NCBI RefSeq assembly: GCF_947487575.1
Contig: NZ_CANKXG010000009.1
Location: 62,001 to 126,000 of the forward strand
Direction of reading: 5' to 3'
Origin: an uncultured Algibacter sp.
GTDB taxonomy: Bacteria; Bacteroidota; Bacteroidia; Flavobacteriales; Flavobacteriaceae
DNA: 64,000 nucleotides
The translations under genes and the position numbers were made by a program. Positions 1,783 to 58,118 of the stretch are shown piece after piece; position 1 is the stretch's first letter, and each line of letters starts with the position of its first letter. The notes beneath the pieces were generated by a model. It worked only from the letters and a program-made list of their open reading frames with translations, did no database searches and was not told the DNA's origin.

Positions 1783-2979
1783 TTATATTTTTTTTCTATA
1801 AACCGAACTATCAAAAAATGCAAGGGATATGATTAGAGTCCTAGTATACCAAATATTATTAGCTAAAAAGCATTCAAAAGTAATTAATGCAATAAAAATT
1901 AAATAAAAAAATTGAGGTGTTTCAAAAGCAAGTTTTATACTATACCCTAAATAGATTAAAAATATGATTAATGTTACAATACCGAAATTTACTGCTAAAT
2001 ATAAAAAGTAATTGTGAGTGTCTAGAGAGTTAAACCTTCTATCAGATGTATAACTGGTTCCGTACCCTAAAGGCTTTTGTTCAAAATCATTCCAATATTT
2101 CATTAATACTACAGCTCGACCACCAGAATTACCACCTTCATCAATAGTAACTTTACTTTTTCCTAAGAACATGTCCATGCGTTCGCCAGCAGCTCCTCTA
2201 GAAAATGCAGGAAAATTTTCTTTTATGACTTCTGAAAAAGATAATAATGCTATGAATAGTATTGATAAAAGTAATCCTAATTTTATAGAGTTAATCATGA
2301 CTGTTTTTGGTTTGATTAGAAATTTCGAGCTCCAATCATTCATAGTCCCTAAAACTAAAATTAATATAACTGATGCCATGCCGCCCCGGGAAAGTGTTAA
2401 AAAAACCGTTACTAACATAAATGTAATAGTAATATATCTCCATTTTTTGTTATTATTTACCAAAACTAAGACCCCAAGGGCTAAAAATTTTATACCAGAG
2501 GCTGCTTGGTTTGGGTTTTCTCCAAAACCACCTTTTCTTACAGCTTCAGATAATTTTTTACTATATGCTGGTAAACCTATAAAGAAATCGTAGAGTAAAC
2601 TCCCTCCTAAAACTAAAAGTGCTGTTGCCAATACCAATAGCACCGTTTGTTTGCTTTCAACAATAAAGAAGTGCAGTGAAAAAGAATAGAGTATTAAAGT
2701 CATAAAGTTTAATCCTATTTCTGTAGTTATTACATCAATTGGAGCGTCTGAAAAAGAAGAATAAACGATAGAAATTAAAATTATAAAAAATAAAAACTTA
2801 AAGCTATGACTTTTGAAAGTACTATAAAAGTCTTTTATAGAATAGTTTAATATAAATAATCCCATGAATAAAGGAATAAAAAATGATGCTGGAGCTACAG
2901 GAACAATATTAATACGGTACAAAAAAATATCCGAGTAAGAAGCAAATAAAACAAGTAAAACACCGAGAATATATTTCAT
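1783..2979 (-). CDS. Wzy-like O-antigen/EPS polymerase (O-antigen ligase family)
   Basis: This 398-residue protein is almost entirely hydrophobic, with about ten predicted membrane spans and one large polar loop at roughly residues 250-310. That loop contains GGNSGGRAVVLMKYWNDF and PLGYGTSYTSD. The plan matches the Wzy polymerase/WaaL ligase superfamily, whose members join polyprenol-linked repeat units outside the inner membrane. It lies between the flippase and the acetyltransferase-like gene, and the presence of Wzx, Wza and Wzc elsewhere in the locus favours polymerase over ligase. Sequence conservation in this family is weak, so the call rests on topology and context. Confidence 0.7.
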   Translation of the reverse strand: MKYILGVLLVLFASYSDIFLYRINIVPVAPASFFIPLFMGLFILNYSIKDFYSTFKSHSFKFLFFIILISIVYSSFSDAPIDVITTEIGLNFMTLILYSFSLHFFIVESKQTVLLVLATALLVLGGSLLYDFFIGLPAYSKKLSEAVRKGGFGENPNQAASGIKFLALGVLVLVNNNKKWRYITITFMLVTVFLTLSRGGMASVILILVLGTMNDWSSKFLIKPKTVMINSIKLGLLLSILFIALLSFSEVIKENFPAFSRGAAGERMDMFLGKSKVTIDEGGNSGGRAVVLMKYWNDFEQKPLGYGTSYTSDRRFNSLDTHNYFLYLAVNFGIVTLIIFLIYLGYSIKLAFETPQFFYLIFIALITFECFLANNIWYTRTLIISLAFFDSSVYRKKI

Positions 2980-2997
2980 TTTTAATTGTTAATGGAT

Positions 2998-4551
2998 TTA
3001 GTGCTTATGATTTTTTTTTAATTTTTTTTTAATGAGCGGATAAAAACGATTTATTAAATTTTTAAACCCCTTACTAAATAATCTTAAAACCATAAAATAA
3101 ACCAATAAAAAAACAATTCCAAGTTTTGTTAACTTATATATCAGTATAAATATACTGCTACTCATTTCAGTATCAAATAAATGGAATATAAAATAAAACA
3201 AGCCACTTGCAAATGATAAATAAATTAAATGTTGAATAAATCCTTTCCAATAAACCGCCGTACTAACTTTAAAACCTTTTGCGAATAAGTAATAAGGTCT
3301 CCAAAGCATAACTACAATAAATTGACTTATTATAGTACCAATAAAAACACCTAGTATACCATATTTTATAACAAAAAAAATAGAGAATACTAAATTTATA
3401 ATACTTTGCACAACTGGTGACCAAATATCGTCATACAGTCCATACGCTTGTTTAAAACTGTCTACGGGTTGTCTGGTTTGAAAAATAAAAAATATGATTA
3501 CCAGAGCAGCTAAAACAGAATTTGTTAGCAAATATTTTTCACCTAACCATAAAATAATAAAATCATCTAGGCCTATATACATTAGTAGTAGCGTTGTGCC
3601 AGCAAAATAAAAACGTAAAGCCATCATTTCCCAGAACACTTTGAGCATATTCTTGATGTCATTTTCGGCAACTAAGTTACCAACACTTGCATTTGTACCA
3701 TCAAATAATTTATTTACTAGAATATTAATATTTCCCATAACCATTTGATAATTACCCACAAATGCAACAGCAGCAGGGTTTATTAAAGCAAATATCACAA
3801 TATTATCTGTCCCAGTTGTAACGAAACTTCCTAGTTTATGAAAACTTATTTGTTTGATTTTTTTTAGAAGAGGTTTGTTTCTTTCTTTTACCTCTTGATT
3901 AGTTTTAAAATTGAAAATAAGCCATGGGTAAATTTTTTTTATTTTTTTTCGTAAAATGAAAACTCCAATAAACGGTGCTAAAAGTTCTAAAGTTACCCAA
4001 AGAGTAATGCTTTTAAAATACAAAAGAACTAAGCATTGAACTATTAATTTACTAATGTGTATAGTTTGATAAATTTTGACATTCACATAAGACTTTTGAT
4101 CAGCTTCTAAGAGAAACATGTGATAAGTAAAAAAGTAATTAATTAGATTTCCTACTATTAATGAGAAAAACAAATAAATAATTATTGAAAGACTTGTATC
4201 TGTTTCTTTGAATAATAAAGGAAAAAATAGAATCAGTGTACAACCAGATATTAAGACAAATAGTCCGATTTTTTTATATAAATAGCCTAAGTAACCAATA
4301 ATTTCGTTGATTTTTTCTCTATCGTTTTCAAAAATAGGTTTATACAGGGAAAATCCAACTGCGGCACCTATACCAAGCTCAGACAAGTTTAAAAACATGA
4401 GCATGCTTCTCAATGTGCCTTCAACACCTAAAAACTCATCTCCTAAATTTTCCAAAAAAATGTTTCTGGCAAAAAATTGAACGACAACATAGGCTAATTG
4501 GAAAACTAGCGCAATCCAGCCGTTTTTTAGGGTTAAACTTAATCTAGACAT
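2998..4551 (-). CDS. Wzx-type oligosaccharide flippase (MATE/MOP superfamily)
   Basis: The protein is 517 residues with about 12-14 predicted membrane spans. Its N-terminal block, MSRLSLTLKNGWIALVFQL followed by FLGVEGTLRSMLMFLNLSELGIGAAVGFSLYKP, is the usual polysaccharide-flippase beginning. Such proteins move undecaprenyl-linked repeat units across the inner membrane. I chose ATG 4551. The frame stays open to a TTG at 4590, but that start would overlap the upstream glycosyltransferase gene, and homologues normally begin at the MSRLS region. It lies 18 bases upstream of the polymerase gene, the typical Wzx-Wzy pairing. Confidence 0.85.
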   Translation of the reverse strand: MSRLSLTLKNGWIALVFQLAYVVVQFFARNIFLENLGDEFLGVEGTLRSMLMFLNLSELGIGAAVGFSLYKPIFENDREKINEIIGYLGYLYKKIGLFVLISGCTLILFFPLLFKETDTSLSIIIYLFFSLIVGNLINYFFTYHMFLLEADQKSYVNVKIYQTIHISKLIVQCLVLLYFKSITLWVTLELLAPFIGVFILRKKIKKIYPWLIFNFKTNQEVKERNKPLLKKIKQISFHKLGSFVTTGTDNIVIFALINPAAVAFVGNYQMVMGNINILVNKLFDGTNASVGNLVAENDIKNMLKVFWEMMALRFYFAGTTLLLMYIGLDDFIILWLGEKYLLTNSVLAALVIIFFIFQTRQPVDSFKQAYGLYDDIWSPVVQSIINLVFSIFFVIKYGILGVFIGTIISQFIVVMLWRPYYLFAKGFKVSTAVYWKGFIQHLIYLSFASGLFYFIFHLFDTEMSSSIFILIYKLTKLGIVFLLVYFMVLRLFSKGFKNLINRFYPLIKKKLKKNHKH

Positions 4552-45338: not shown

Positions 45339-46085
45339 ATGAAATTATTAGAAGGAAAAACCGCTATAGTTACAGGAGCTAGTCGCGGAATAGGAAAAGG
45401 AATTGCACAAGTTTTTGCTGAGCAAGGAGCAAATGTAGCATTTACATATAGTTCTTCGGTTGAAGCAGCAAACGAATTAGAAAGAGAACTTAATCTTTTA
45501 GGAATTAAGGCTAAAGGCTATAAAAGTGATGCAGCAAGTTTTGAAGAAGCCCAAGAGTTAGCAAATGAAGTTGCTAAAGAATTTGGAAGTATAGATATTT
45601 TAGTTAATAACGCAGGAATCACAAAAGATAATTTGCTAATGCGTATTACAGAGGATGATTTTGATACCGTTATTGAAGTCAATTTGAAATCTGTTTTTAA
45701 TATGACAAAAGCAGTTCAAAGAACCATGCTTAAACAACGAAAAGGTTCTATCATAAATATGAGTTCTGTGGTTGGAGTAAAAGGAAATGCAGGGCAAACT
45801 AATTATGCAGCTTCAAAGGCAGGAATTATTGGATTTTCAAAATCTGTAGCTTTAGAGCTTGGTTCAAGAAACATAAGAAGCAATGTCGTGGCACCGGGCT
45901 TTATAGAAACCGAAATGACAGCTAAATTAGATGAAGAAATTGTTAAAGGATGGCGAGCAGGAATCCCTTTAAAAAGAGGAGGAACTCCAGAAGATATTGC
46001 TAATGTTTGTGTGTTTTTAGCTAGCGACATGAGCGCGTATGTTACAGGCCAAACGTTAAACGTTGATGGCGGAATGCTTACTTAA
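45339..46085 (+). CDS. fabG: 3-oxoacyl-ACP reductase
   Basis: The 248-residue short-chain dehydrogenase has TGASRGIGKGIA for NADPH, NNAG, the catalytic Ser in NMSSVVG, Tyr and Lys in YAASKAG (about residues 156-160) and a C-terminal GQTLNVDGGM. These are hallmarks of FabG, which reduces 3-oxoacyl-ACP in each round of fatty acid synthesis. It has its own probable promoter and is followed by a repeat of the GCGGAGGCAGGAAT family. Confidence 0.95.
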   Translation: MKLLEGKTAIVTGASRGIGKGIAQVFAEQGANVAFTYSSSVEAANELERELNLLGIKAKGYKSDAASFEEAQELANEVAKEFGSIDILVNNAGITKDNLLMRITEDDFDTVIEVNLKSVFNMTKAVQRTMLKQRKGSIINMSSVVGVKGNAGQTNYAASKAGIIGFSKSVALELGSRNIRSNVVAPGFIETEMTAKLDEEIVKGWRAGIPLKRGGTPEDIANVCVFLASDMSAYVTGQTLNVDGGMLT

Positions 46086-46110
46086 TTGTCATTACTGCGG
46101 AGGCAGGAAT
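46086..46110. repeat. Small palindromic intergenic repeat
   Basis: ATTACTGCGGAGGCAGGAAT forms the hairpin CTGC-GGAG-GCAG with flanking ATT/AAT. Sequences of the type GTCATTCCTGCGGAGGCAGGAAT (here only partly shown) are widespread between genes in flavobacteria, from memory. Only one copy is seen in this window. Confidence 0.5.
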
Positions 46111-46139
46111 CTTATCAAGATTAAATTTAAAGTTTATTA

Positions 46140-48173
46140 ATGAGTTCTGAAACTCTATTATACATCATACTTGCTGGAATTATAGCGCTAGGTTTAGCGC
46201 TATTTCAGTATTTTATTAAAAAGAAGAGCATGTCAAAATTGAACATGCTTTTTTCGTTTTTAAGGTTTTTGAGTATATTTTCAGTACTGCTATTAATTAT
46301 TAATCCAAGTTTTGATCAAATAAAGGTTTCAGTTGAAAAGCCAAATTTGATTGTTGCTATTGATAATTCAAGTTCTGTAAAACATTTAAAACAGAATGAG
46401 AATCTGATTGATTTTATTGAAGAAATCAAGGCTAATGATGACCTTCAAAAGAAATTTAATATAGATTATTATGCCTTTGGAGAAAGCTTAATTTTATCTG
46501 ACTCTATTACGTTTTTAGATAAACAAACAAATATTTCTAAGGCATTTAGTCAATTAAATCAAATCTATAAGCAAACAACATCTCCAACTTTACTTGTTAC
46601 AGATGGAAACCAAACTTATGGGAATGATTATCAGTTTGTGTCGAACACATACAAACAACCCATTTATCCAATAATTTTGGGTGATACGATTACTTATGTC
46701 GATTTAAAAATTCAACAGCTTAACGTCAATAAGTATGCGTATTTAAAAAATAGATTTCCTGTTGAAACTATTTTAGTTTATAATGGAAACGATAATATTA
46801 ATTCAACGTTTGTGGTTAAAATTGGAAATGTTACAGTGTTTTCAAAAACAATTAACTTTTCTAAAAATGATAATTCTAAGGTTGTTAATTTTACTTTGCC
46901 AACAAATAGAGTGGGTATTAGTAATTATAAAGCGACACTAGTTCCTTTAGAAAGTGAAAAAAATAAAATAAATAATTCAAAGAATTTTGCAGTTGAAGTT
47001 ATTAATCAAAAAACAAAAATTGCTATAGTTAGTGATTTTTCACATCCAGATTTAGGTGCTTTAAAAAAGAGTATTGAAAGTAATGAACAGCGCTCTGTTT
47101 CTATATTGACACCTAAATATGTGATTAATCAAATTAATGATTTTCAGTTAATTATAGTCTATCAACCAAATAACAAGTTTAATATTTTGTTTGGTAGGTT
47201 AGAATCGCTAAATAAAAATCTATTTATAATTATTGGTGCTAAGACAGACTTGAGTTTTATGTATAAAGTTTCTGAAAATTATTCTCATGTAATAACTGGT
47301 CAACCCGAAAATTATCAAGCAGAATTAAACATAAATTATTCTCCGTTTATTATTGATGATATCAATTTTGAGTCATTTCCACCATTACTTTCAAATTACG
47401 GAGAAGTAAAATTTAATACACCTTTCCAAACAATATTAAACAAAAGAGTTAACGGTATTACAATAAACCAACCACTTTTAGCAACATTTGAAACTAACAG
47501 TAGAAGAGAAGCTGTTTTATTTGGTGAAAATATATGGCAATGGAGAGCTCAAAGTTATTTAAATGAAAAATCATTTAACGATTTTGATAATTTTATTGGG
47601 AAACTCATTCAATACTTAGCGACTAATAAGAAAAAAAGCAGACTTAATATTGACTATCAATCGTTTTATAACGGAAGCGGAAACATTATTATTAAAGCAG
47701 AGTTTTTTGATAAAAACTATGTTTTTGACACGCGTGAATCTTTAAATATTGTAATTACAGATAAGGTTTCAAAAGAGAAAAAAACATTTCCTCTAATTTT
47801 AAAGAACAATAATTATCAAGTCGATTTAAGCAGTTTGTTACCCTCAGAATACAGTTTTACAGTAAAAGCTACAAATGAAAATCTATCTAAATCTGGTAGT
47901 TTTCAAATCTTAGAATATAATGTAGAACAACAATTTTTAAATGCCGATGTAACAAAGTTACAGCAGTTAGCTACTAACAGTTCGGGTTCAAGTTATTTTA
48001 TTGCTGAAACAGAAAAAGTGGTAAACGATTTATTGAATGATAATCGTTTCACTTCAATTCAAAAAAGCAGTAAAAATACCATACCTTTGATAGATTGGAA
48101 ATACCTTCTAGCCATTATAGCACTTAGCTTAGGTGTTGAGTGGTTTTTAAGAAAATATAACGGATTAATTTAA
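46140..48173 (+). CDS. Membrane protein with von Willebrand factor A-like domain
   Basis: The 677-residue protein has two N-terminal spans (ETLLYIILAGIIALGLALFQYF, LFSFLRFLSIFSVLLLIINP). The VWA-like stretch NLIVAIDNSSSVKHL carries a DxSxS metal site and ends TTSPTLLVTDGNQTYGNDY. A long beta-rich periplasmic region and a C-terminal span (YLLAIIALSLGVEWFLRKY) follow. This is the architecture of BatA-like or glutamine-amidotransferase-like envelope proteins common in Bacteroidetes. The function is not known. It lies 10 bases before the prohibitin-like gene, so both are probably expressed together. Confidence 0.75.
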   Translation: MSSETLLYIILAGIIALGLALFQYFIKKKSMSKLNMLFSFLRFLSIFSVLLLIINPSFDQIKVSVEKPNLIVAIDNSSSVKHLKQNENLIDFIEEIKANDDLQKKFNIDYYAFGESLILSDSITFLDKQTNISKAFSQLNQIYKQTTSPTLLVTDGNQTYGNDYQFVSNTYKQPIYPIILGDTITYVDLKIQQLNVNKYAYLKNRFPVETILVYNGNDNINSTFVVKIGNVTVFSKTINFSKNDNSKVVNFTLPTNRVGISNYKATLVPLESEKNKINNSKNFAVEVINQKTKIAIVSDFSHPDLGALKKSIESNEQRSVSILTPKYVINQINDFQLIIVYQPNNKFNILFGRLESLNKNLFIIIGAKTDLSFMYKVSENYSHVITGQPENYQAELNINYSPFIIDDINFESFPPLLSNYGEVKFNTPFQTILNKRVNGITINQPLLATFETNSRREAVLFGENIWQWRAQSYLNEKSFNDFDNFIGKLIQYLATNKKKSRLNIDYQSFYNGSGNIIIKAEFFDKNYVFDTRESLNIVITDKVSKEKKTFPLILKNNNYQVDLSSLLPSEYSFTVKATNENLSKSGSFQILEYNVEQQFLNADVTKLQQLATNSSGSSYFIAETEKVVNDLLNDNRFTSIQKSSKNTIPLIDWKYLLAIIALSLGVEWFLRKYNGLI

Positions 48174-48183
48174 ATAAAAAAAA

Positions 48184-48999
48184 ATGGAAAAATTACCAAA
48201 AGTAGCATTGCCTTTTATAATTGGGGCAATATTATTAGTAGTCGTATTAGCAAAATCAGCAATAACTATAGATTCTGGGGAGGCTGGAGTGCTTTTTAAA
48301 ACCTTTGGAGATGGTGTTGTCGTTGATGAGCCACCAATGGGAGAAGGGTTTCATATTGTTGCACCTTGGAACAAGGTATATGTTTATGAAGTAAGACAGC
48401 AAGAACTTTTTGAAAAAATGAAGGTGTTGTCTTCAAACGGATTAGAAATTCAAATTGATGCTTCGGCATGGTATGAGCCTGTGTATAATGAATTAGGTAA
48501 TTTGCACCAGTCTCTTGGTCAAAACTATTTACAACGTGTTATTCAACCTGCAATTCGTAGTGCAGCAAGAAGTGTTATTGGGCGTTATACCCCAGACGAT
48601 TTGTATTCAACAAAACGAGACGCAATTCAGGTTGAAATTTTTGAAGAAACTAAGAAAATACTTGATAAGCAATATGTTCAATTAAATGAAGTGTTGGTAA
48701 GAGATGTAACTTTACCTCCAACAATTAAAGATGCCATAGAACGTAAATTAAAACAAGAACAAGAATCCTTAGAATATGAGTTTAGATTAGTTACAGCAGA
48801 AAAAGAAGCTGAGAAAGTAATTATTGAAGCAAAAGGTAAAGCAGATGCTAACAGGATTTTAAGTGCTTCATTAACTGATAAGATTCTTCAAGATAAAGGT
48901 ATTGAGGCAACGGTTAAGCTATCAGAATCTTCAAATAGCAAAGTAATTGTTATTGGTTCTGGAGATAGTGGAATGCCAATTATCCTTGGAAATCAATAA
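48184..48999 (+). CDS. SPFH/prohibitin-family membrane protein
   Basis: The 271-residue protein has an N-terminal membrane anchor (VALPFIIGAILLVVVLAKSA) and a Band 7 domain (TIDSGEAGVLFKTFGDGV, GEGFHIVAPWNKVYVYEVRQQE, LRNV-like RVIQPAIRSAARSVIGRYTPDDLYSTKRDAIQ). A coiled coil, EQESLEYEFRLVTAEKEAEKVIIEAKGKADANRIL, follows. Prohibitin-like rings organise membrane domains and regulate FtsH-type proteases in other bacteria. The neighbouring VWA-like membrane protein is a possible partner, by proximity only. Confidence 0.92.
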   Translation: MEKLPKVALPFIIGAILLVVVLAKSAITIDSGEAGVLFKTFGDGVVVDEPPMGEGFHIVAPWNKVYVYEVRQQELFEKMKVLSSNGLEIQIDASAWYEPVYNELGNLHQSLGQNYLQRVIQPAIRSAARSVIGRYTPDDLYSTKRDAIQVEIFEETKKILDKQYVQLNEVLVRDVTLPPTIKDAIERKLKQEQESLEYEFRLVTAEKEAEKVIIEAKGKADANRILSASLTDKILQDKGIEATVKLSESSNSKVIVIGSGDSGMPIILGNQ

Positions 49000-49094
49000 A
49001 ATAATTGAGCTTTTAATACATTCATTAAAAATTATTAATTTTTTTATAGGTAAATATTAATAATATTGAATTGTTTTAAGAATTGTATTTATAA

Positions 49095-49127
49095 TTTGGA
49101 TTTAATCATATAAATTATAGATATTTG
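49095..49127 (+). promoter_or_regulatory. Candidate promoter of the his leader
   Basis: TTTG at 49095-49098 and GATATTTG at 49120-49127 resemble the Bacteroidetes elements, with a 21-base spacer and one mismatch. Transcription would start near 49134, a few bases before the leader peptide start at 49146, which suits an attenuator. The match is moderate. Confidence 0.4.
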
Positions 49128-49145
49128 CATTGTTAAAAAAAAGAC

Positions 49146-49199
49146 ATGACTTTTATTCAATCACATCATCATTTTCATATTTGCTCTCAAGCGAAGTGA
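49146..49199 (+). CDS. hisL: Histidine operon leader peptide
   Basis: The frame reads MTFIQSHHHFHICSQAK, 17 residues with four histidines within five codons (CAT at 49164-49172 and 49176-49178). It stops 32 bases before a terminator hairpin and lies directly upstream of a complete histidine biosynthesis operon. Its last codons, TCTCAAGCG at 49185-49193, also form one arm of an antiterminator. This is the design of classic amino-acid attenuators: slow translation of His codons exposes the arm, fast translation covers it. The peptide itself has no expected function after translation. Confidence 0.85.
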   Translation: MTFIQSHHHFHICSQAK

Positions 49200-49245
49200 A
49201 AATGTATTGAGTAAAATCAGCATATATTTTTAAACCCGTTTGAGA
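49185..49245 (+). promoter_or_regulatory. Antiterminator of the his attenuator
   Basis: TCTCAAGCG at 49185-49193 pairs over nine bases with CGTTTGAGA at 49237-49245, with one G-T pair. The second arm overlaps the 5' arm of the terminator (49232-49243), so the two folds exclude each other. A ribosome stalled at the first His codons would leave the first arm free; a ribosome reaching the stop codon at 49197 would cover it. Confidence 0.75.
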
Positions 49246-49263
49246 CAATCAAGCGGGTTTTTT
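49232..49263 (+). terminator. Terminator of the his attenuator
   Basis: AAACCCGTTTGA (49232-49243), loop GACAA, TCAAGCGGGTTT (49249-49260) give a 12-pair stem with one G-T pair, followed by T residues to 49263. It lies 33 bases after the leader peptide stop and 47 bases before the hisG start, so it can end transcription before the structural genes. Confidence 0.85.
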
Positions 49264-49309
49264 AATTCTAATGCCAACTAGATTGTTTCAAACTCATAAA
49301 AACAACATA

Positions 49310-50167
49310 ATGAGTAAATTAAGAATTGCAGTACAGAAATCAGGTCGTTTAAACGAAGACTCGATGAAAATATTAAAAGACATCGGAATTTCTATTGATA
49401 ATGGAAAAGACCAATTAAAAGCATCAGCTAGAAACTTTCCCGTAGAGGTTTTCTATTTAAGAAACGGAGATATTCCTCAGTATTTAAAAGACGGAGTAGT
49501 AGACGTTGCCATTATTGGCGAGAATGTCTTAATTGAAAAAGGGAATGATTTAAAATTTGTGGAACGTTTAGGGTTTTCAAAATGTAAAGTTTCTATTGCG
49601 GTTCCGAAAGATTCTGATGATAGTTCTCTAAAAGATTTAAACGGAAAAAAAATAGCTACTTCATACCCTGAAACGGTAAAGAAGTTTTTAAAAGAGCAAA
49701 ATATTGATGCACAATTACACATTATTAACGGATCTGTTGAAATCGCTCCCAATATTGGATTAGCAGACGGAATTTGTGATATTGTTTCTAGTGGAAGCAC
49801 TTTATTTAAAAATGGCTTAAAGGAAATTGAAGTTTTGTTAAAGTCTGAGGCTGTTTTGGCCGTATCTCCAGTTCTTGATGCTGAAAAGCAAAAAATTCTT
49901 GATACCATTCAATTTAGAATTCAATCGGTTTTAAAAGGTAGGGATTCAAAATATGTTTTACTAAACGCGCCTAATGATAAAATACAAGATATCATAAATG
50001 TATTGCCAGGTATGAAAAGCCCATCAGTTTTACCACTAGACGAAAAGGGATGGAGTTCTGTGCACTCAGTAATTAGTAAAAATGAGTTTTGGGACGTTAT
50101 AGACGCATTAAAAGCTAATGGTGCGGAAGGTATATTGGTTTGTCCTATTGAAAAAATGGTTTTATAA
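49310..50167 (+). CDS. hisG: ATP phosphoribosyltransferase (long form)
   Basis: The 285-residue enzyme makes the first step of histidine synthesis, PRPP plus ATP to phosphoribosyl-ATP. It has LRIAVQKSGRLNEDSMKIL, VDVAIIGENVLIEKG, GKKIATSYPETVKKFL, the PRPP-binding DGICDIVSSGSTL and a C-terminal ACT-like regulatory domain (MKSPSVLPLDEKGWSSVHSVI). It is therefore the long, HisZ-independent form, inhibited by histidine in relatives. I start at ATG 49310 (MSKLRIAVQ); a frame from 49271 would put a poorly conserved extension next to the terminator. Confidence 0.96.
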   Translation: MSKLRIAVQKSGRLNEDSMKILKDIGISIDNGKDQLKASARNFPVEVFYLRNGDIPQYLKDGVVDVAIIGENVLIEKGNDLKFVERLGFSKCKVSIAVPKDSDDSSLKDLNGKKIATSYPETVKKFLKEQNIDAQLHIINGSVEIAPNIGLADGICDIVSSGSTLFKNGLKEIEVLLKSEAVLAVSPVLDAEKQKILDTIQFRIQSVLKGRDSKYVLLNAPNDKIQDIINVLPGMKSPSVLPLDEKGWSSVHSVISKNEFWDVIDALKANGAEGILVCPIEKMVL

Positions 50168-50236
50168 ATAACTTTTAGCAATTTGCTATTCGTGTTTAGC
50201 GGATAGCCAAAAATCAAAAGTCTAAAGCTTTTTTAA
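50168..50236. repeat. Spacer with GCTA/TAGC-type repeat between hisG and hisD
   Basis: The 69-base gap contains TAGCAATTTGCTA and TTTAGCGGATAGCC. It resembles the low-complexity AGCTAAAAGCC-type sequences in three later gaps of this operon. No terminator is formed. Confidence 0.45.
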
Positions 50237-51523
50237 ATGCAAATAATTAATAATCCAAATAAAGTTAGTTGGAAGGACGTTTTAAAGCGACCTACTCAAA
50301 CGGTTGATGATATTGAGGATACGGTCAATCAAATTTTTGATGAAGTTTCTCAAAAGGGTGATGAAGCCATAAAGAAATACACGTCTTATTTTGATGGAAT
50401 TTCTATGAAGTCAAATATTGTATCTATTGGCGAAATTAATGACGCCGTTAAGCAGGTACCCGAAAAACTTCAAAACGCCATTAAAATAGCCAAGAAGAAT
50501 ATCGAGGCATTTCATGGTATTCAGAAGTCATCAAAAATAGAAATTGAAACAACCCTTGGTGTGCAGTGTTGGCAAGAAAAACGGCCTATTCAAAAAGTTG
50601 GATTATATATTCCAGGAGGAACAGCGCCTTTGTTTTCAACCGTTTTAATGTTAGCAGTACCAGCACAAATAGCAGGTTGTAAAGAAATCGTTTTGTGCTC
50701 ACCTCCAAATAAAGCAGGAAAGCTTGCACCAGAAATTTTGTTTGCAGCTCAGCTTTGTGGGGTTACTAAAATCATAAAGGTTGGAGGTATTCAGGCTATT
50801 GCTGGATTAACCTTTGGAACAGAAACAATTCCGCAAGTTTATAAAATATTTGGACCAGGAAACCAGTTTGTAACTGTTGCTAAACAATTAGCCACAAAGC
50901 ATGGTGTAGCTATTGATATGCCAGCAGGGCCAAGTGAATTGTTAGTAGTTGCAGACGAAACAGCAAATGCATCATATATAGCTTCAGATTTACTAAGTCA
51001 AGCTGAACACGGTACAGACAGTCAAGTCATTTTGGTTTCAACATCAAAACGAATAATAGATGAAGTTTCAGAGGAAGTTGAAAAACAGTTAGATGTACTT
51101 CCGCGTAAAGCGATTGCAGAAAAAGCCATGGCAAATTCGAAGTTGATTTATGTTGAAAATGATGACATTGCACTTGAATTAATTAATGAATATGGCCCAG
51201 AGCATTTTATTATTTGTGCTAAGAATGAAAATTTGTATGTGGACGGTATAAATAATGCTGGTTCCATATTTATAGGAGACTATACACCTGAGAGTGCTGG
51301 AGATTACGCATCAGGAACTAACCACACATTGCCAACAAACGGATTTTCAAAGGCATATTCTGGAGTTAATTTAGATAGTTTTTTAAAAAGTATGACGTTT
51401 CAAAAAATTTCAAAAGATGGGCTTTTAAATATTGGAGAAACTATAGAATTAATGGCGGATGCAGAAGGCTTACAAGCGCACAAAAATGCAGTAACCATAA
51501 GATTAAAGGATTTAAAAAAATAG
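50237..51523 (+). CDS. hisD: Histidinol dehydrogenase
   Basis: The 428-residue zinc enzyme does the last two steps of histidine synthesis, histidinol to histidine. It has KRPIQKVGLYIPGGTAPLFSTVLMLAVPAQIAGCKEIVLCSPP, GGIQAIAGLTFGTETIPQVYKIFGPGNQFV, DMPAGPSELLVVADETANASYIASDLLSQAEHG with a zinc-binding Gln-His and FIGDYTPESAGDYASGTNHTLPT with the catalytic Glu and His. Length is normal. Gene order hisG-hisD is standard. Confidence 0.97.
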   Translation: MQIINNPNKVSWKDVLKRPTQTVDDIEDTVNQIFDEVSQKGDEAIKKYTSYFDGISMKSNIVSIGEINDAVKQVPEKLQNAIKIAKKNIEAFHGIQKSSKIEIETTLGVQCWQEKRPIQKVGLYIPGGTAPLFSTVLMLAVPAQIAGCKEIVLCSPPNKAGKLAPEILFAAQLCGVTKIIKVGGIQAIAGLTFGTETIPQVYKIFGPGNQFVTVAKQLATKHGVAIDMPAGPSELLVVADETANASYIASDLLSQAEHGTDSQVILVSTSKRIIDEVSEEVEKQLDVLPRKAIAEKAMANSKLIYVENDDIALELINEYGPEHFIICAKNENLYVDGINNAGSIFIGDYTPESAGDYASGTNHTLPTNGFSKAYSGVNLDSFLKSMTFQKISKDGLLNIGETIELMADAEGLQAHKNAVTIRLKDLKK

Positions 51524-51531
51524 CTGTGTCA

Positions 51532-51588
51532 TGCTGAACTTGTTTCAGCATAACACATAATTATAAGACACTGAAATAAATTCAGTGT
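51532..51588. repeat. Two palindromes in the hisD-hisC gap
   Basis: TGCTGAA (51532-51538) pairs with TTCAGCA (51544-51550), and ACACTGAA (51568-51575) with TTCAGTGT (51581-51588). The first belongs to a family CTGAACTTGTTTCAG that recurs before hisI. Such elements, similar to REP sequences, are widespread in flavobacterial genomes as I recall. They may stabilise or process the his mRNA. Confidence 0.65.
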
Positions 51589-51597
51589 AACGATAAA

Positions 51598-52632
51598 ATG
51601 AATATTCAAGATTTAATAAGACCAACCATAAAAGCACTAAAGCCGTATTCATCGGCAAGAGATGAATTTCAAGGTAATAGTGATGCTATGGTGTTTTTAG
51701 ATGCGAATGAAAACCCGTTTGAAAATGGTGTAAATCGTTATCCAGACCCACAACAGCGTACTGTGAAATCACTCCTTTCTAAAATTAAAGAGATTCCTCA
51801 AGAAAATATTCTTCTTGGAAATGGAAGTGATGAAGTTTTAGATTTAATATTCCGAGCATTTTGCGAGCCCAATCAAGATAATATCATCACATTACCACCA
51901 ACTTACGGGATGTACAGTGTGTTGGCTAATATCAATGCTATAGCTATTAAAAGTGTTCAACTTGATGACAGATTTCAGCCTAAAGTTGATGCCATATTAA
52001 AAATAGCAGATTCGAATTCTAAATTACTCTTTTTATGTTCGCCAAATAACCCAACAGGAAATAGTTTTGAGGCTAAATCTATTGAGAGATTAATAAAAGA
52101 ATTTAAAGGGATAGTGGTTATTGATGAAGCTTATATTGATTTTTCAAATGAAGAAAGTTGGGCAAGTCGATTAAACGAATTTCCAAATTTGATAGTGACG
52201 CAAACACTTTCTAAAGCTTATGGAATGGCAGGAATTCGTTTAGGAATTTGTTATGCTTCGAGCGAGATTATTTCGGTTTTAAATCGTATTAAACCGCCTT
52301 ATAACGTAAACGAATTGACGCAACAAAAAGCGATTTCTCAATTAGAGAAAAACGAAATAACTAAACAACAAGTTTCAAATATTTTAAAAGAGCGTAATGT
52401 TTTAGTTAGCAAGTTAAAGGACGTAAATTACATTTCAAAAGTATACCCATCAGATGCAAATTTTGTTTTAGCAAAAGTTGATGATGCTACAAAACGATAC
52501 AATCAATTAATTGAAAAAGGTATCGTTATTAGAAATAGAACTACACAACCAAGATGCGAAAATTGTTTGCGTTTTACAATTGGAACTTCTGAAGAGAATA
52601 AAATATTAATAGATACTCTAAATTCTATATAA
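51598..52632 (+). CDS. hisC: Histidinol-phosphate aminotransferase
   Basis: The 344-residue PLP aminotransferase of class I/II has [61 protein letters not shown], the PLP-lysine motif [14 protein letters not shown] and CLRFTIGT near the C-terminus with the phosphate-binding Arg. It converts imidazole-acetol phosphate to histidinol phosphate with glutamate. Its stop codon overlaps the hisB start by one base (TAATG). Confidence 0.97.
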
Positions 52633-53768
52633 TGAAAAAAGTACTTTTTATCGATAGAGATGGCACATTGGTATTGGAGCCACCAGTAGATTATCAATTA
52701 GATAGTTTAGAAAAGCTGGAATATTATCCTAAAGTATTTCAATACATGGCTAAAATAGCTAATGAATTGGATTATGAATTAGTTATGGTAACCAATCAAG
52801 ATGGTTTAGGAACTGATAGTTTTCCTGAAGATACGTTTTGGCCTGCTCAAAATAAAATTATTGATGCATTTGCTAAAGAAGGTGTTACTTTTTCTGAAGT
52901 GTTTATTGATAAAACATTTCCTCATGAGAATGCGGAGACTCGTAAGCCAAGAACAGGCCTGTTAACTCAATACTTTTTAGAAGATTATGATTTAGAAAAT
53001 TCGTTTGTTTTAGGCGACAGAATTACCGATATGGAACTCGCTAAAAACTTAGGAGCAAAAGGTATTTACTTGTCTGAAAATCCCGAATTGGGAGCTGATG
53101 AAATAGAAAGTTCTAAACAAGAAATTCTAGATTGCATAGCTTTAACAAGCACAGATTGGGCAGAAATATATGCCTTTTTAAAAGCTGATGAACGTACTGG
53201 TGGTTTAATTAGAAATACTAATGAAACGAAAATTGCTATTCAGATAAATCTTGATGGTACAGGAAAAAGTAAAATTGATACCGGAATTGCTTTTTTTGAC
53301 CACATGTTGGACCAAATAGCGCGCCACGGTCAATTAGATTTAAATATTAAGGTTGATGGCGATTTAGAAGTTGATGAACATCATACTATTGAAGATACCG
53401 CTATTGCCTTAGGAGAAATTTTTAATAAAGCTTTAGGGAATAAATTAGGTATAGAACGTTACGGTTTCTGTTTACCAATGGATGATTGTTATGCACAAGC
53501 GGCTATCGATTTTGGGGGAAGAAACTGGTTAGTTTGGGAAGCTGATTTTAAACGTGAAATGATTGGCAAAATGCCAACTGAAATGTTTTATCATTTCTTT
53601 AAATCATTTACTGATGGTGCAAAATGTAATTTGAATATAAAAGCAGAAGGCACCAATGAACATCACAAAATAGAAGCTATTTTTAAAGTGTTTGCAAAAG
53701 CTATTAAAATGGCTGTAAAGCGTGATATTGAAAAAATGATTTTACCAAGTACAAAAGGAATGTTATAA
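52632..53768 (+). CDS. hisB: Bifunctional histidinol-phosphatase / imidazoleglycerol-phosphate dehydratase
   Basis: The 378-residue protein fuses two enzymes. The N-terminal HAD phosphatase has [17 protein letters not shown] and [15 protein letters not shown]. The C-terminal dehydratase begins near residue 190 and has [51 protein letters not shown] and [20 protein letters not shown] with metal-binding His repeats. The same fusion exists in enterobacteria. It does the sixth and eighth steps of the pathway. Confidence 0.97.
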
Positions 53769-53828
53769 AAAGCCATTAGCCTTTAGCTGTTTGCCAATAG
53801 CTAAAAGCCGATAGCTAAAAGCCATAGA
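53769..53828. repeat. AGCTAAAAGCC-type repeat between hisB and hisH
   Basis: The gap holds AAAAGCCATTAGCCTTTAGC and then CCAATAGCTAAAAGCCGATA with another copy of AGCTAAAAGCC. These short direct and inverted repeats recur in the gaps after hisH and hisA. Confidence 0.6.
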
Positions 53829-54410
53829 ATGAAATTAGTTATAATTAATTACGGTGCAGGAAATATAAAAAGCATCCAATTTGCTTTTAAACGTTTGGGT
53901 GTTGATGCTGTTTTGTCAAATACCCCAGAAGAAATAGTAGCTGCCGATAAAATAATTTTTCCAGGTGTTGGAGAAGCAAGTTCTGCTATGAAAATGCTTC
54001 GCGAAAGTGGTTTGGATGAATTGATACCTAAATTAAAACAACCCGTTTTAGGAATTTGTTTAGGGATGCAATTACTTTGTAAATCAACAGAGGAAGGCAA
54101 TACAAAAGGTCTTGGTATTTTTCAAACAGATGTAAAACGGTTTTCAAACGATGTAAAAGTACCACAAATGGGATGGAATGTCATTAAGGATTTAAAGTCC
54201 GATTTGTTTAAAGACATCAAAGAAAATGAATATATGTATTTGGTACACAGCTATTATGCAGAACATTGTAATGAAACGATAGCTAAAACAGATTATGGTA
54301 TCAATTATGCATCAGCATTACAACATAAAAATTTTTATGGGACACAATTTCACCCAGAAAAGAGTGGTACTGCAGGAGCAAGAATATTAGAGAATTTTTT
54401 GAATTTATAA
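53829..54410 (+). CDS. hisH: Imidazole glycerol phosphate synthase, glutaminase subunit
   Basis: The 193-residue class I glutamine amidotransferase has NYGAGNIKSIQFAFKRLG, PGVGEASSAM, the nucleophile Cys77 in GICLGMQLL and His175 and Glu177 in QFHPEKSG. It gives ammonia to HisF, encoded two genes downstream. Length and motifs are normal. Confidence 0.97.
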   Translation: MKLVIINYGAGNIKSIQFAFKRLGVDAVLSNTPEEIVAADKIIFPGVGEASSAMKMLRESGLDELIPKLKQPVLGICLGMQLLCKSTEEGNTKGLGIFQTDVKRFSNDVKVPQMGWNVIKDLKSDLFKDIKENEYMYLVHSYYAEHCNETIAKTDYGINYASALQHKNFYGTQFHPEKSGTAGARILENFLNL

Positions 54411-54458
54411 ACAGTCTTTGGCTAATAGCTAGAAGCCAAAAGCAAATAGCTAAAAATA
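54411..54458. repeat. Repeat between hisH and hisA
   Basis: The 48-base gap contains GGCTAATAGCTAGAAGCC and AGCAAATAGCTAAAAATA, related to the repeats between hisB and hisH and between hisA and hisF. Confidence 0.55.
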
Positions 54459-55193
54459 ATGAGAATAATACCAGCAATAGACATCATCGATGGAAAGTGT
54501 GTTCGCTTAACTAAAGGGGATTATGATACTAAAAAAGTATACAATGAAAATCCACTTGAGGTAGCAAAAATGTTTGAGGCTTCAGGTATAGAATATTTAC
54601 ATTTAGTAGATTTAGATGGAGCAAAAGCAAAACATATTGTGAACTATAAGGTGCTTGAGCAAATAGCTTCTAAAACAAAATTAAAAATTGATTTTGGAGG
54701 TGGTTTAAAAACTAATGAAGATTTACATATTGCTTTTAATTCTGGTGCGAGACAAATTACTGGAGGGAGTATTGCAGTTAAGGACCGAGAAACTTTTGAA
54801 GGTTGGATATCTAAGTACGGAAGTGAAAAAATAATATTAGGAGCCGATAGTAATGCTGGTAAAATAGCTATTAGTGGTTGGCAAGAAGATAGCACTGAAG
54901 AAGTTATTCCGTTTATAAAAGCATATCAGAAGAAAGGGATACAATATGTTATTTGTACTGATATTTCAAAAGATGGTATGCTTGAAGGGCCTTCTTTTGA
55001 TTTGTATAACGATATTATATCAGAATGTTCAAATAGCAGTAATGACCAATCAATTAAGTTAATTGCATCTGGAGGTATTTCAACTATTGAAGAGTTGCCG
55101 AAATTAATTGAATTAGGCTGTGAAGGCGTTATTATAGGAAAAGCTATTTATGAAAATAGAATTAGTCTTTACGAACTAGAAAAATTTGTATAA
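54459..55193 (+). CDS. hisA: ProFAR isomerase (phosphoribosylformimino-AICAR-phosphate isomerase)
   Basis: The 244-residue beta-alpha barrel has [22 protein letters not shown] with catalytic Asp8, [26 protein letters not shown], the second acidic region [14 protein letters not shown] and two phosphate loops ([17 protein letters not shown]). It does the fourth step of the pathway, an Amadori rearrangement. Confidence 0.97.
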
Positions 55194-55250
55194 TTAATGG
55201 CTATTAGTTTTTAGCCGTTAGCTAATTGTCAAAAGCCAAAAAGCTATAAA
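55194..55250. repeat. Repeat between hisA and hisF
   Basis: The 57-base gap contains ATGGCTATTAGTTTTTAGCC and GTTAGCTAATTGTC, then AAAAGCCAAAAAGCTATA. It is a variant of the AGCTAAAAGCC family seen in this operon. Confidence 0.55.
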
Positions 55251-56006
55251 ATGTTAACAAAAAGAATTATACCCTGCTTAGATATCAAAAACGGACGTAC
55301 CGTAAAAGGTGTGAATTTCGTTGATTTACGTGATGCTGGGGACCCAGTAGAACTCGCTAAACAATATGCAGATCATGGTGCTGATGAACTAGTGTTTCTT
55401 GATATTTCAGCAACATTAGAAGGACGAGCAACTGTTTTAGATATGGTTTTACATGTTGCTGAACAAGTAAATATTCCATTTACAGTTGGTGGTGGTATTT
55501 CAAGCGTGGAGCACGTTGATGCCTTATTACAATGCGGTGCAGATAAAGTGTCTATTAACTCTTCAGCTGTTAAGCGACCAGAACTAGTTAATGAATTAGC
55601 AGATAAGTTTGGAAGCCAATGCGTGGTTGTTGCTATTGACGCTAAAAAAATAGAAGGAGAGTGGTTTGTTCATCTTGCAGGAGGTACCATTCCAACGGAT
55701 ATCAAACTATTTGAATGGGCAAAAGAGGTTGAAGAGCGTGGTGCAGGTGAAATTTTATTCACATCCATGAATCATGATGGTACTAAAAATGGTTTTGCAA
55801 ATGAGGCTTTAGCAAAATTATCTAAAGAATTGAATATTCCTATAATTGCATCAGGTGGCGCAGGGAATGTGCAGCATTTTATTGATACTTTTGTTGATGG
55901 AAAATCGGATGCAGCTCTAGCTGCAAGTGTATTTCATTTTGGAGAAATACCAATACCAGATTTAAAAAAAGAATTAAAACAAAATAATATAGAAGTGCGA
56001 CTTTAG
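55251..56006 (+). CDS. hisF: Imidazole glycerol phosphate synthase, cyclase subunit
   Basis: The 251-residue barrel has [19 protein letters not shown] with catalytic Asp11, [49 protein letters not shown] with the second catalytic Asp, and [11 protein letters not shown] and ASGGAGN. It uses ammonia from HisH to make IGP and AICAR. Length is normal. Confidence 0.97.
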
Positions 56007-56011
56007 TCGTT

Positions 56012-56032
56012 ATACTGAACTTGTTTCAGTAT
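56012..56032. repeat. Palindrome of the CTGAACTTGTTTCAG family before hisI
   Basis: ATACTGAA (56012-56019) pairs with TTCAGTAT (56025-56032) across the loop CTTGT. The central 15 bases are identical to the palindrome in the hisD-hisC gap at 51534-51548. Confidence 0.65.
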
Positions 56033-56049
56033 CTCATAATGAAATAAAG

Positions 56050-56643
56050 ATGGAAATTAAATACGACAATAACGGATTAGTACCAGCAATCATTCAAGAT
56101 GCCACGACAAAGAATGTTTTGATGTTAGGTTACATGAATGAAGAGTCATATCAAAAAACTATAGAGACTAAAAAGATTACTTTTTTCAGTAGAAGTAAGC
56201 AACGCTTATGGACTAAAGGCGAAGAAAGTGGCAATTTTTTAAATCTTGTGGATATAAAAAATGACTGTGATAACGATTCACTATTAATTCAAGTTAATCC
56301 TGTTGGACCAACATGTCATACAGGAACAGATACGTGCTGGAAGGAAGAAAACAATGCGTCTTACGGCTTCTTTTCAACTCTAGAAGATGTGATTGCAGAA
56401 CGTGTTGCCAATAAGGATACTACAAAGTCTTATGTGGCAAGTTTGTTTTCAAAAGGTATTAATAAAGTAGCTCAAAAAGTAGGCGAGGAGGCTGTTGAAA
56501 CTGTTATTGAAGCTATGGATAATAATGATGAGCTTTTCTTATACGAATCGGCAGATTTGTTATTTCATTATTTAATGTTGCTACAAGCCAAAGGTTTTAC
56601 TTTAAAGGATATTGAAAACGAATTACAAAGTAGACATAAGTAA
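56050..56643 (+). CDS. hisI: Bifunctional phosphoribosyl-AMP cyclohydrolase / phosphoribosyl-ATP pyrophosphatase
   Basis: The 197-residue fusion is HisIE. HisI (residues 1 to about 105) has VLMLGYMNEESYQKTIETKKITFFSRSKQRLWTKGEESGN and the zinc-binding DCDNDSLLIQVNPVGPTCHTGTDTCW. HisE has the MazG-like helical part with GEEAVETVIEAMDNNDELFLYESADLLFHYLMLL. It does the second and third steps and is the last gene of the operon, so the operon encodes all ten reactions. Confidence 0.96.
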   Translation: MEIKYDNNGLVPAIIQDATTKNVLMLGYMNEESYQKTIETKKITFFSRSKQRLWTKGEESGNFLNLVDIKNDCDNDSLLIQVNPVGPTCHTGTDTCWKEENNASYGFFSTLEDVIAERVANKDTTKSYVASLFSKGINKVAQKVGEEAVETVIEAMDNNDELFLYESADLLFHYLMLLQAKGFTLKDIENELQSRHK

Positions 56644-56714
56644 TATTAAAAATCTTTTATTACTTTTAGCGTAAAATAATAGTACATAGTAACCCCCAAA
56701 AAACCTACTATATT

Positions 56715-58118
56715 ATGTTTAAACCTACGCTTTCCAAATGGTACTTATATTTTTGTATAAGTACTTTAATCTTTTCATGTTATAACGATAAGGACGATTC
56801 AAAAGATGTTTCATCTTCACCTTTAAGTAATACAGATTCCAATAACCCAAATCCATTTAATGGTGTTATGCGACCTATAGAGGTTTTACCTTATCCAGAG
56901 ATTTCTACAAAAACGTATGTAATAGAGTTAGAACGTTGGGACATCCCAAACAATAGAACTGAAGCTGTAAAAACTACTGATAATTTACAATCAGCAATAA
57001 ATTGGGCTATTTCGCAAGCCTATGGCATTATTCGTTTACCAGCAGGACATTATTTAATAGGTAAGTACGGTAACGATATATATCAAGCAGGTATTACATT
57101 AGATGATAACGTAGCATTTTTACTAGATGAAAATGCTACTATAGAAATGGTTCCTAACGACAAATGGAATTACTGTGCCATAGCAGTAAGAAATAAAGCT
57201 AACGTTGTTATTTCTGGAGGAACAATCCTAGGTGATAGAGATAATCATATTTTTACCCCAAGAGCAGATGGAGACGCGGCCCATGATGAAGGACATTTAA
57301 TTTGTATAGAAGGAGAAAGCCAATTTGTTACGGTAGAAAATGTGGTATTAGGGAAAGCTAATGGCGATGGAATTTTAATGGTTGGAAATAAAAAAGGGGA
57401 AGTCCAAAATTTGAAAAACATTACTATCAGGAAGAATAACTTTTCAGATAATAGAAGACAAGGCATTTCTCTTGTAGGTAGTGCAGATGTGTTAATAGAA
57501 CATAACGAAATTCATCATACCAATGGCACATCGCCTCAGTTTGGTGTAGATCTAGAAGGTGCAGGAAGAACAAATGAAAATATTACTATTAGAAATAATT
57601 ATTTTCATAATAATAGAGGAGGAGATATTGTGAATACTGATGGTAAAAATGTGCTAGTAGAATATAACATATTATTGCAAGGCGATGATAGTGAATATAT
57701 AGATGGTCCCATTGTATATTGGAAAAATGCAGACTGGACGATTAGAAATAACAGTATAACTATGCGAACTGTTTCCGTTAATAATTGGAATGGTATTATT
57801 ATGTATTCTAATGATAATCCAAAAACCAATCCAGAAACAACATATATTTACGACAATACATTAAATAATTGTGGGATGTATATGTATAAAGGCGCCGATT
57901 TAGAGATTTATAATAACTATATGTATCGTGGGCATTTAGCATTTAAAGAGATGGAAAATTTAACCTTAACCAATAACCATGTGAATCATGATAACAAATG
58001 TTGGGCCTACCGCTTTTTAGAAGTTAGTGGTAACGCATCAGACAACACCTATAATGGAGAAGCATTCAATATACCTTTAGTTACAGATGCAACATGGAAT
58101 GGTTGTTGGATAAAGTAA
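56715..58118 (+). CDS. Surface lipoprotein with right-handed beta-helix
   Basis: The 467-residue protein has a lipoprotein signal peptide, lipobox LIFSC with Cys22, and a low-complexity Ser/Asn linker. A pectate-lyase-3/parallel-beta-helix region follows: TTDNLQSAINWAISQAYGIIRLPAGHYLIG, VVISGGTILGDR, ITIRKNNFSDNRRQGISLVG, VLIEHNEIHHTNG, ITIRNNYFHNNRGGDIV. The short asparagine ladders fit a polysaccharide-binding or degrading enzyme on the cell surface. It follows the his operon at 71 bases but has no metabolic link to it. The substrate is unknown. Confidence 0.82.
   Translation: MFKPTLSKWYLYFCISTLIFSCYNDKDDSKDVSSSPLSNTDSNNPNPFNGVMRPIEVLPYPEISTKTYVIELERWDIPNNRTEAVKTTDNLQSAINWAISQAYGIIRLPAGHYLIGKYGNDIYQAGITLDDNVAFLLDENATIEMVPNDKWNYCAIAVRNKANVVISGGTILGDRDNHIFTPRADGDAAHDEGHLICIEGESQFVTVENVVLGKANGDGILMVGNKKGEVQNLKNITIRKNNFSDNRRQGISLVGSADVLIEHNEIHHTNGTSPQFGVDLEGAGRTNENITIRNNYFHNNRGGDIVNTDGKNVLVEYNILLQGDDSEYIDGPIVYWKNADWTIRNNSITMRTVSVNNWNGIIMYSNDNPKTNPETTYIYDNTLNNCGMYMYKGADLEIYNNYMYRGHLAFKEMENLTLTNNHVNHDNKCWAYRFLEVSGNASDNTYNGEAFNIPLVTDATWNGCWIK

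Follow-up and report, generated by a model that had tools for sequence, protein, structure and literature searches.

The leader of the γ-proteobacterial histidine operon is represented in Rfam as RF00514 (His_leader), and the openly available text of PMC9413887 describes its control by attenuation. The same text reports, from comparative work, His leader peptides with a terminator and an antiterminator in Firmicutes lineages; these belong to another phylum, and no fifth segment is described for them there. Within the Bacteroidota, Rfam holds RF01692 (Bacteroid-trp), which appears in Table 1 of PMC2864571 and is treated as a trp leader in PMC6414381 (accessible parts of both). For histidine, a 2021 paper on Flavobacterium psychrophilum (PMC9723704) lists a conserved element 5′ of hisG, reports such elements in other Flavobacteriaceae without an Rfam match, and suspects leader-peptide attenuation for amino-acid operons. 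It also gives the TAnnTTTG promoter box and an initiation of translation that does not rest on Shine-Dalgarno sites. Its openly available text contains no pairing scheme, phylum-wide spread, or fifth segment, details of which its supplements may hold, and beyond this paper we found no Bacteroidota his attenuator described segment by segment in the openly readable literature. The F. psychrophilum element is almost certainly the element described here, in a relative. The attenuator is in outline already partly in print; its fifth segment, at 49281-49293, is new here.

The locus resembles RF00514 in its His-rich leader peptide, its alternative terminator and antiterminator, hisG as the first gene, and the same regulatory logic; it differs in its Bacteroidota-type promoter and in the fifth conserved segment behind the terminator. 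RF00514 gave no match at the locus, and elsewhere in the genome its best score, 24.2 bits, stayed below the cut-off of 49. The cut-off of RF01692 was not reached at the his locus either; its sole match in the genome (64.1 bits) lies elsewhere (L222, G000:C7, 1430-1680, - strand) and comprises the leader MKKTLNNTWWWNFRN and a terminator. We take the gene behind it to be trpE. Both elements are leader-peptide attenuators in the Bacteroidota; the Bacteroid-trp element of this genome differs in its Trp codons and in its sequence. Some 20 bases separate its terminator from the start codon, and nothing comparable to segment 5 was seen there.

In the window (the whole stretch of 64,000 nucleotides that was analysed), direct reading of the sequence placed a histidine attenuator at 49146-49263, just 5′ of hisG, with all its features on the + strand. 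The leader peptide frame MTFIQSHHHFHICSQAK (49146-49199) has 17 codons between the ATG at 49146 and the stop TGA at 49197-49199, and its control codons CAT CAT CAT TTT CAT (49164-49178) specify histidine in four of five positions (49164-49172 and 49176-49178). Within the frame lies the antiterminator strand, segment 2 (TCTCAAGCG, 49185-49193), defined by pairing, permutation tests, and the switch model; it is complementary at 9 of 9 positions, including one G-U, to segment 3 (CGTTTGAGA, 49237-49245). Segment 3 can alternatively pair with segment 4, forming an intrinsic terminator (49232-49263) with a 3:4 stem at 49232-49260 of 12 pairs, a loop of 5 bases, and a T run after it; one terminator was observed against 0.3 expected in shuffles, and its pairs are conserved among relatives. 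The region 49140-49275 folded at -41.2 kcal/mol (z -7.36), and none of 200 shuffles was equally low. The lowest-energy fold includes a leader hairpin 1:2 (49147-49219; 29 predicted pairs), which joins the start of the frame to bases past the stop codon and is thus predicted to hide the antiterminator strand. The sequence-only reading had already located the 17-residue frame with four His codons in five, the antiterminator pairing, and the 12-pair terminator with its T run, all of which direct reading found where it had put them. It had called the arrangement complete with two exclusive hairpins; both are present, and the protector hairpin at 49147-49219 and the fifth segment had been overlooked.

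A probable -7 promoter box, GATATTTG (49120-49127), has a single mismatch to TAnnTTTG and lies about 25 bases 5′ of the leader ATG, not 3′ of 49199. A transcription start downstream of 49199, which had been named as evidence against the attenuator, therefore lacks support in the sequence, the predicted box being upstream of the leader. Among 81 loci (the window and the best 80 of 523 relatives), a relaxed form of the box, defined post hoc after the data had been seen, was present 8-40 bases before the leader ATG in 76, against a background of 19 of 891 windows inside hisG. The strict TAnnTTTG box that it replaced was found in only 2 of these 81 loci and in 44 of 72 other Flavobacteriales loci. 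Downstream of the leader, the frame at 49310-50167 is named hisG from its translation, and the following frames (50237-56643) were read as hisD, hisC, hisB, hisH, hisA, hisF, and hisIE; we assigned these names by recognising the translations, not by family search, and they are to be taken as our assumption. The hisG frame could be extended to an in-frame ATG at 49271; in relatives hisG begins at the position equivalent to 49310. A gene caller that started hisG at 49271 could bury segment 5 in the coding region.

The sequence-only reading had argued that the spacing fits ribosome-controlled attenuation, a ribosome stalled at the His codons freeing the antiterminator arm and one at the stop codon covering it. 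Modelling agrees with both points, since an RNA ending at 49246 is predicted to behave as a classical switch. With ribosome footprints set to assumed values, the 2:3 pairing had a probability of 0.98 when a ribosome occupied either of the first two His codons, compared to 0.06 in ribosome-free RNA and 0.00 when the ribosome stood at the stop codon. In the RNA ending at 49263, the terminator won at equilibrium in all four states (3:4 at 1.00 even with a stalled ribosome). Thus, the switch must be kinetic, with the order of events deciding the outcome. We propose that transcription would start just 5′ of the leader frame. When charged His-tRNA is ample, the ribosome would reach the stop codon and cover segment 2, or depart and let hairpin 1:2 hide it; with segment 2 unavailable, segments 3 and 4 would pair and transcription would stop. 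When charged His-tRNA is scarce, the ribosome would stall on the His codons, so that the leader hairpin could not close, segment 2 would capture segment 3 before segment 4 exists, and RNA polymerase would continue into hisG. The His-rich frame and the competing hairpins thus very probably switch the his genes on when histidine is short, and we give a probability of roughly 0.9 to the reading of the locus as a his operon attenuator that acts on transcription under ribosome control.

To describe conservation among near relatives, we used the best 80 of 523 confirmed loci (from Algibacter, Polaribacter, Tenacibaculum, Winogradskyella, and others), which together with the window formed alignment A1 (81 rows, nearly without gaps). 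These 81 loci and 72 Flavobacteriales loci made up a set of 153, from which 31 were removed by spacer length only, giving alignment A2 (122 rows). Four of 140 loci (L084, L086, L148, and L149) stood outside the 153-locus set for want of an ATG leader or a terminator by rule; by eye, a GTG leader or an imperfect terminator was present in them. A His-rich leader (ATG frame, at least 3 His in 6 residues) preceded hisG in 80 of these best 80 relatives, and across A1 the His codons stayed constant where adjacent codons varied. For the terminator, 99.7% of the cells in A2 were paired, with 30 changed cells against 4.0. For the leader hairpin in A1, 88.2% of cells were paired, and double-sided changes occurred in 82 cells compared to 34.1 in shuffles, with no excess of pair types (27 versus 27.9). 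The antiterminator core was nearly invariant in A1 (88.9% of cells paired) and showed no covariation there (9 changed cells versus 8.5), as expected if segment 3 is bound to several partners. The sequence-only reading had looked to relatives for a kept His run and covarying stems. The run is kept in all of the best 80, and compensatory changes are found in the terminator and the leader hairpin; for the antiterminator there are none among the 81 near sequences.

We also followed the leader beyond the near relatives. Among 149 drawn Flavobacteriaceae genomes, which represent nearly one per genus, 123 had a detected hisG and 137 a match to the leader model R1 at E ≤ 0.1. By hand count among the matches listed, R1 lay directly 5′ of hisG in at least 119 of the 123 hisG-bearing genomes; of the exceptions, G292 has its match on another contig, and G308, G309, and G379 fall outside the matches listed. 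In a phylum draw of 247 genomes, 213 had hisG and 71 an R1 match, with many weak matches away from hisG. Beyond the Flavobacteriaceae, R1 was found at hisG in three genomes of a sister family (G012, G095, and G210) and in G152 and G051. Because R1 was too narrow for the rest of the phylum, we read the sequences upstream of hisG directly, one per genome, at 76 loci within the order and 62 outside it. A His-rich frame (ATG, 7-60 codons, at least 3 His in 7, within 300 bases 5′ of hisG) was present at 71 of the 76 Flavobacteriales loci and 48 of the 62 others. The controls gave 1/76 and 1/62 on the reverse strand, and 8/760 and 9/620 in shuffles (about 1-1.5%). A terminator was detected automatically at 72 of the 76 loci within the order, and outside it frame and terminator occurred together at 36 of 62; by rule, a terminator was absent from 14 of 50 outside-order loci having a His-rich frame. 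In permutation tests, which ignore relatedness, the antiterminator pairing of own partners was stronger than that of permuted ones both outside the order (n = 36; -15.3 versus -10.7 kcal/mol) and within it (n = 72; -13.5 versus -12.5 kcal/mol), with 0 of 5000 permutations as low in either case. Since each leader thus pairs better with its own terminator arm, the antiterminator design has been kept while the sequences were replaced; the pairing recurs, with changed sequence, in other Bacteroidota orders.

Several loci depart from this arrangement. In L192-L197, six loci from one family of the same class, a His-rich frame lies 73-85 bases before hisG and a terminator by rule is absent; from their sequences, control in these may be translational or depend on a factor. 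L160 (G152), from a genome of another class, carries a leader near to that of the Flavobacteriaceae and a HisG 62% identical to that of the window, and leader and HisG may perhaps have been acquired by transfer. At L158 (G272:C11, about 2743-3020, - strand), a leader is kept (R1 E 2.2e-7) in a genome without a detected hisG; it precedes a short frame with a HisG-like start and a HisIE-like end, by eye the scar of a deleted his operon. L159 (G378:C126, 575-690) is a second leader copy at a contig end and not before hisG, and the frame behind it resembles an IS200-type transposase by eye. A weak second R1 match in the genome of the window (G000:C19:60-125; 33.7 bits, E 0.004) also lies at a contig end.

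Between the terminator and hisG lies segment 5 (GATTGTTTCAAAC, 49281-49293), which is complementary at 13 of 13 positions, with one G-U, to segment 3 plus the terminator loop (GTTTGAGACAATC, 49238-49250), a partner identified by complementarity and covariation. In read-through RNA, this fifth segment would pair with segment 3 and the loop. Among the 81 near loci (the window and the best 80 of 523 relatives), the 3:5 pairing reached -10 kcal/mol or lower in 66 and not in the other 15; own pairs averaged -13.4 compared to -9.0 between loci with different loops. In the 122 loci picked by spacer length alone, own pairs averaged -13.6 versus -9.4 for permuted ones (lowest of 5000, -10.3), double-sided changes were found in 142 cells versus 51.7 in shuffles, and 85.5% of cells were paired compared to at most 51.5% when the strands were slid. 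With one locus per genus and a spacer of at least 27 bases (n = 55), the means were -12.3 and -8.4 (0/5000), and 37 of 55 reached -10 or lower. In Flavobacterium, 63 of the 67 loci carried the pairing and the remaining 4 went unparsed; the script found no hisG start in 4 of the 70 loci L223-L292, and 1 of these 70, from another genus, lacked a canonical arm. A tree-based test of independent pairs in the near set (best 80 of 523) had no power, with 3-4 supported pairs per column; columns 14:86 and 16:85 were concordant in 1.9/3 and 2.8/4 pairs, and columns 12:88 and 13:87 in none. These comparisons give good support to a 3:5 pairing that compensatory changes have preserved throughout the order.

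Segment 5 is present in most of the examined Flavobacteriaceae that have room for it. Of the long-spacer genera, 18 of 55 lacked the pairing, as did all 17 with a short spacer, and outside the order (n = 19) it gave no signal, with 1576 of 5000 permutations as low and 4 of 19 loci reaching the mark. Since many loci and genera lack it, segment 5 is not essential to the attenuator. Of 66 loci compared at equilibrium, only 5 favoured 3:5 over 3:4. Two other readings of segment 5 were considered and rejected: the leftover of a duplicated terminator arm, as it complements the loop too, which segment 4 does not, and a DNA operator, as it changes together with segment 3 rather than staying constant. 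Its most likely role would be to let hisG translation sense whether the terminator has formed.

A second partner for segment 5 is the hisG start itself. The sequence ACTCAT at its 3′ edge (49292-49297) is complementary to the hisG start ATGAGT, that is, to the start codon and codon 2 (segment 6, 49310-49315), as read directly and in the pairing models; this complementarity holds for the group to which the window belongs. The start codon was unpaired with a probability of 0.32 when 3:4 was forced and 0.60 when 3:5 was forced; the second value exceeded the first in 59 of 66 loci and fell below it in 4. This contrast is partly built in because forcing 3:5 frees any partner of segment 5. Compared to shuffled segments, the own segment 5 lowered this probability from 0.50 to 0.36 (lower in 69 of 105 loci), and in Flavobacterium from 0.42 to 0.35 (45 of 63); its pairing with the start region beat that of shuffles in 82 of 105 loci (-5.96 versus -3.15). 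Own start regions also paired better than permuted ones in 133 loci with duplicates removed (-6.69 versus -5.49), in Flavobacterium (n = 43; -9.14 versus -8.31), and with one locus per genus (n = 36; -5.69 versus -4.33), in each case with 0 of 5000 permutations as low. Among the closest relatives (n = 54, from the best 80 of 523), the test was negative (-5.42 versus -5.73; 4525/5000 as low), as was a further permutation test on the closest-relative set (4369/5000). In the bases that follow TGAG, segment 3 and the hisG start were no more alike than in permuted pairs (83 loci; 2.23 versus 2.18 of 4; 984/5000). Individual lineages show coupled changes: hisG ATGAGTAC goes with GAGTAC in segment 3 and GTACTC in segment 5, and hisG ATGAACAC (L227, L241, L242, L244, and L251) with GGTGTAC in segment 5, of which GGTGT would serve the gene and GTAC segment 3. 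In L041, L047, and L058, where hisG starts with ATGAAC or ATGAAT, segment 3 has GAACC, GAACT, or GAATC, not GAG. According to the models, segment 5 can alternatively pair with the hisG start codon in several lineages, and the coupled changes in segment 3, segment 5, and the hisG start suggest, short of proof, a second lock at translation.

We considered a double lock, in which the leader ribosome would set both elongation and hisG initiation through segment 5. Segment 5 would choose between segment 3 with the terminator loop and the hisG start region, which segment 3 appears to imitate in several lineages (for example, UGAGUAC in both and GUACUC in segment 5). With histidine ample, 3:4 would end most transcripts, and in those that escape the spare segment 5 would bind the start codon. 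With histidine short, 2:3 would form and its free loop would offer a foothold to segment 5; 3:5 would then form and the start codon would remain open. A precedent for such layered control is the trp leader of Bacillus subtilis, where TRAP acts on termination as well as on first-gene translation, the sensor being a protein and a Shine-Dalgarno site being hidden. In the proposed reading, read-through RNA would likewise be restrained a second time at translation; unlike in that system, sensing would fall to the leader ribosome, and what is hidden would be the start codon itself. We put the double lock forward only tentatively, with the odds against it.

Nearly an even chance goes to a plain attenuator in which segment 5 is an insulator only, independent of the histidine state: in read-through RNA, the 3:5 pairing would undo the terminator hairpin or keep the region before the start free. 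It would account for the contrast between a covarying 3:5 and a 5:6 that many genera form weakly or not at all, for instance those with hisG starts of the ATGAAAAAA, ACTAAA, and ACAAAA classes, and for the missing 5:6 permutation signal in the closest-relative set (best 80 of 523). In that set, segment 5 and the ATG are often 13-16 bases apart, which places segment 5 just beyond the start region, as would suit an insulator. Yet in Flavobacterium this distance is 10-35 bases and 5:6 pairing is nevertheless strong, and altered hisG starts are accompanied by an altered segment 5.

The trp attenuator RNA of Sinorhizobium acts in trans, and terminated his leader RNA could by analogy bind, through its arm and loop, to segment 5 of other his mRNAs. 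The leader portion that segment 5 complements is indeed just the one carried by the terminated transcript; the same mRNA, however, has its own segment 3 nearby, and segment 3 of the terminated RNA is locked inside the terminator stem, which makes action in trans very improbable. Control without a translating ribosome, whether through a T-box, through a protein, or through a fixed terminator beside an unrelated small frame, is the least probable reading, as no Rfam family, T-box included, reached its gathering threshold anywhere in the window (46000-58000 held two chance-level matches only, both away from the locus), the His codons are constant amid changing neighbours, and the frame recurs in distant taxa within different RNA sequence.

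Together, the comparison shows that classical His attenuation is widespread in the Bacteroidota, as had already been suspected in print for one species. If the double lock is true, a leader-peptide attenuator would also gate a start codon, without a protein sensor or a Shine-Dalgarno site. This would bear on how start codons are chosen in the mRNAs of the Bacteroidota, a phylum that hardly uses Shine-Dalgarno sites, and the exact segments are now defined for testing.
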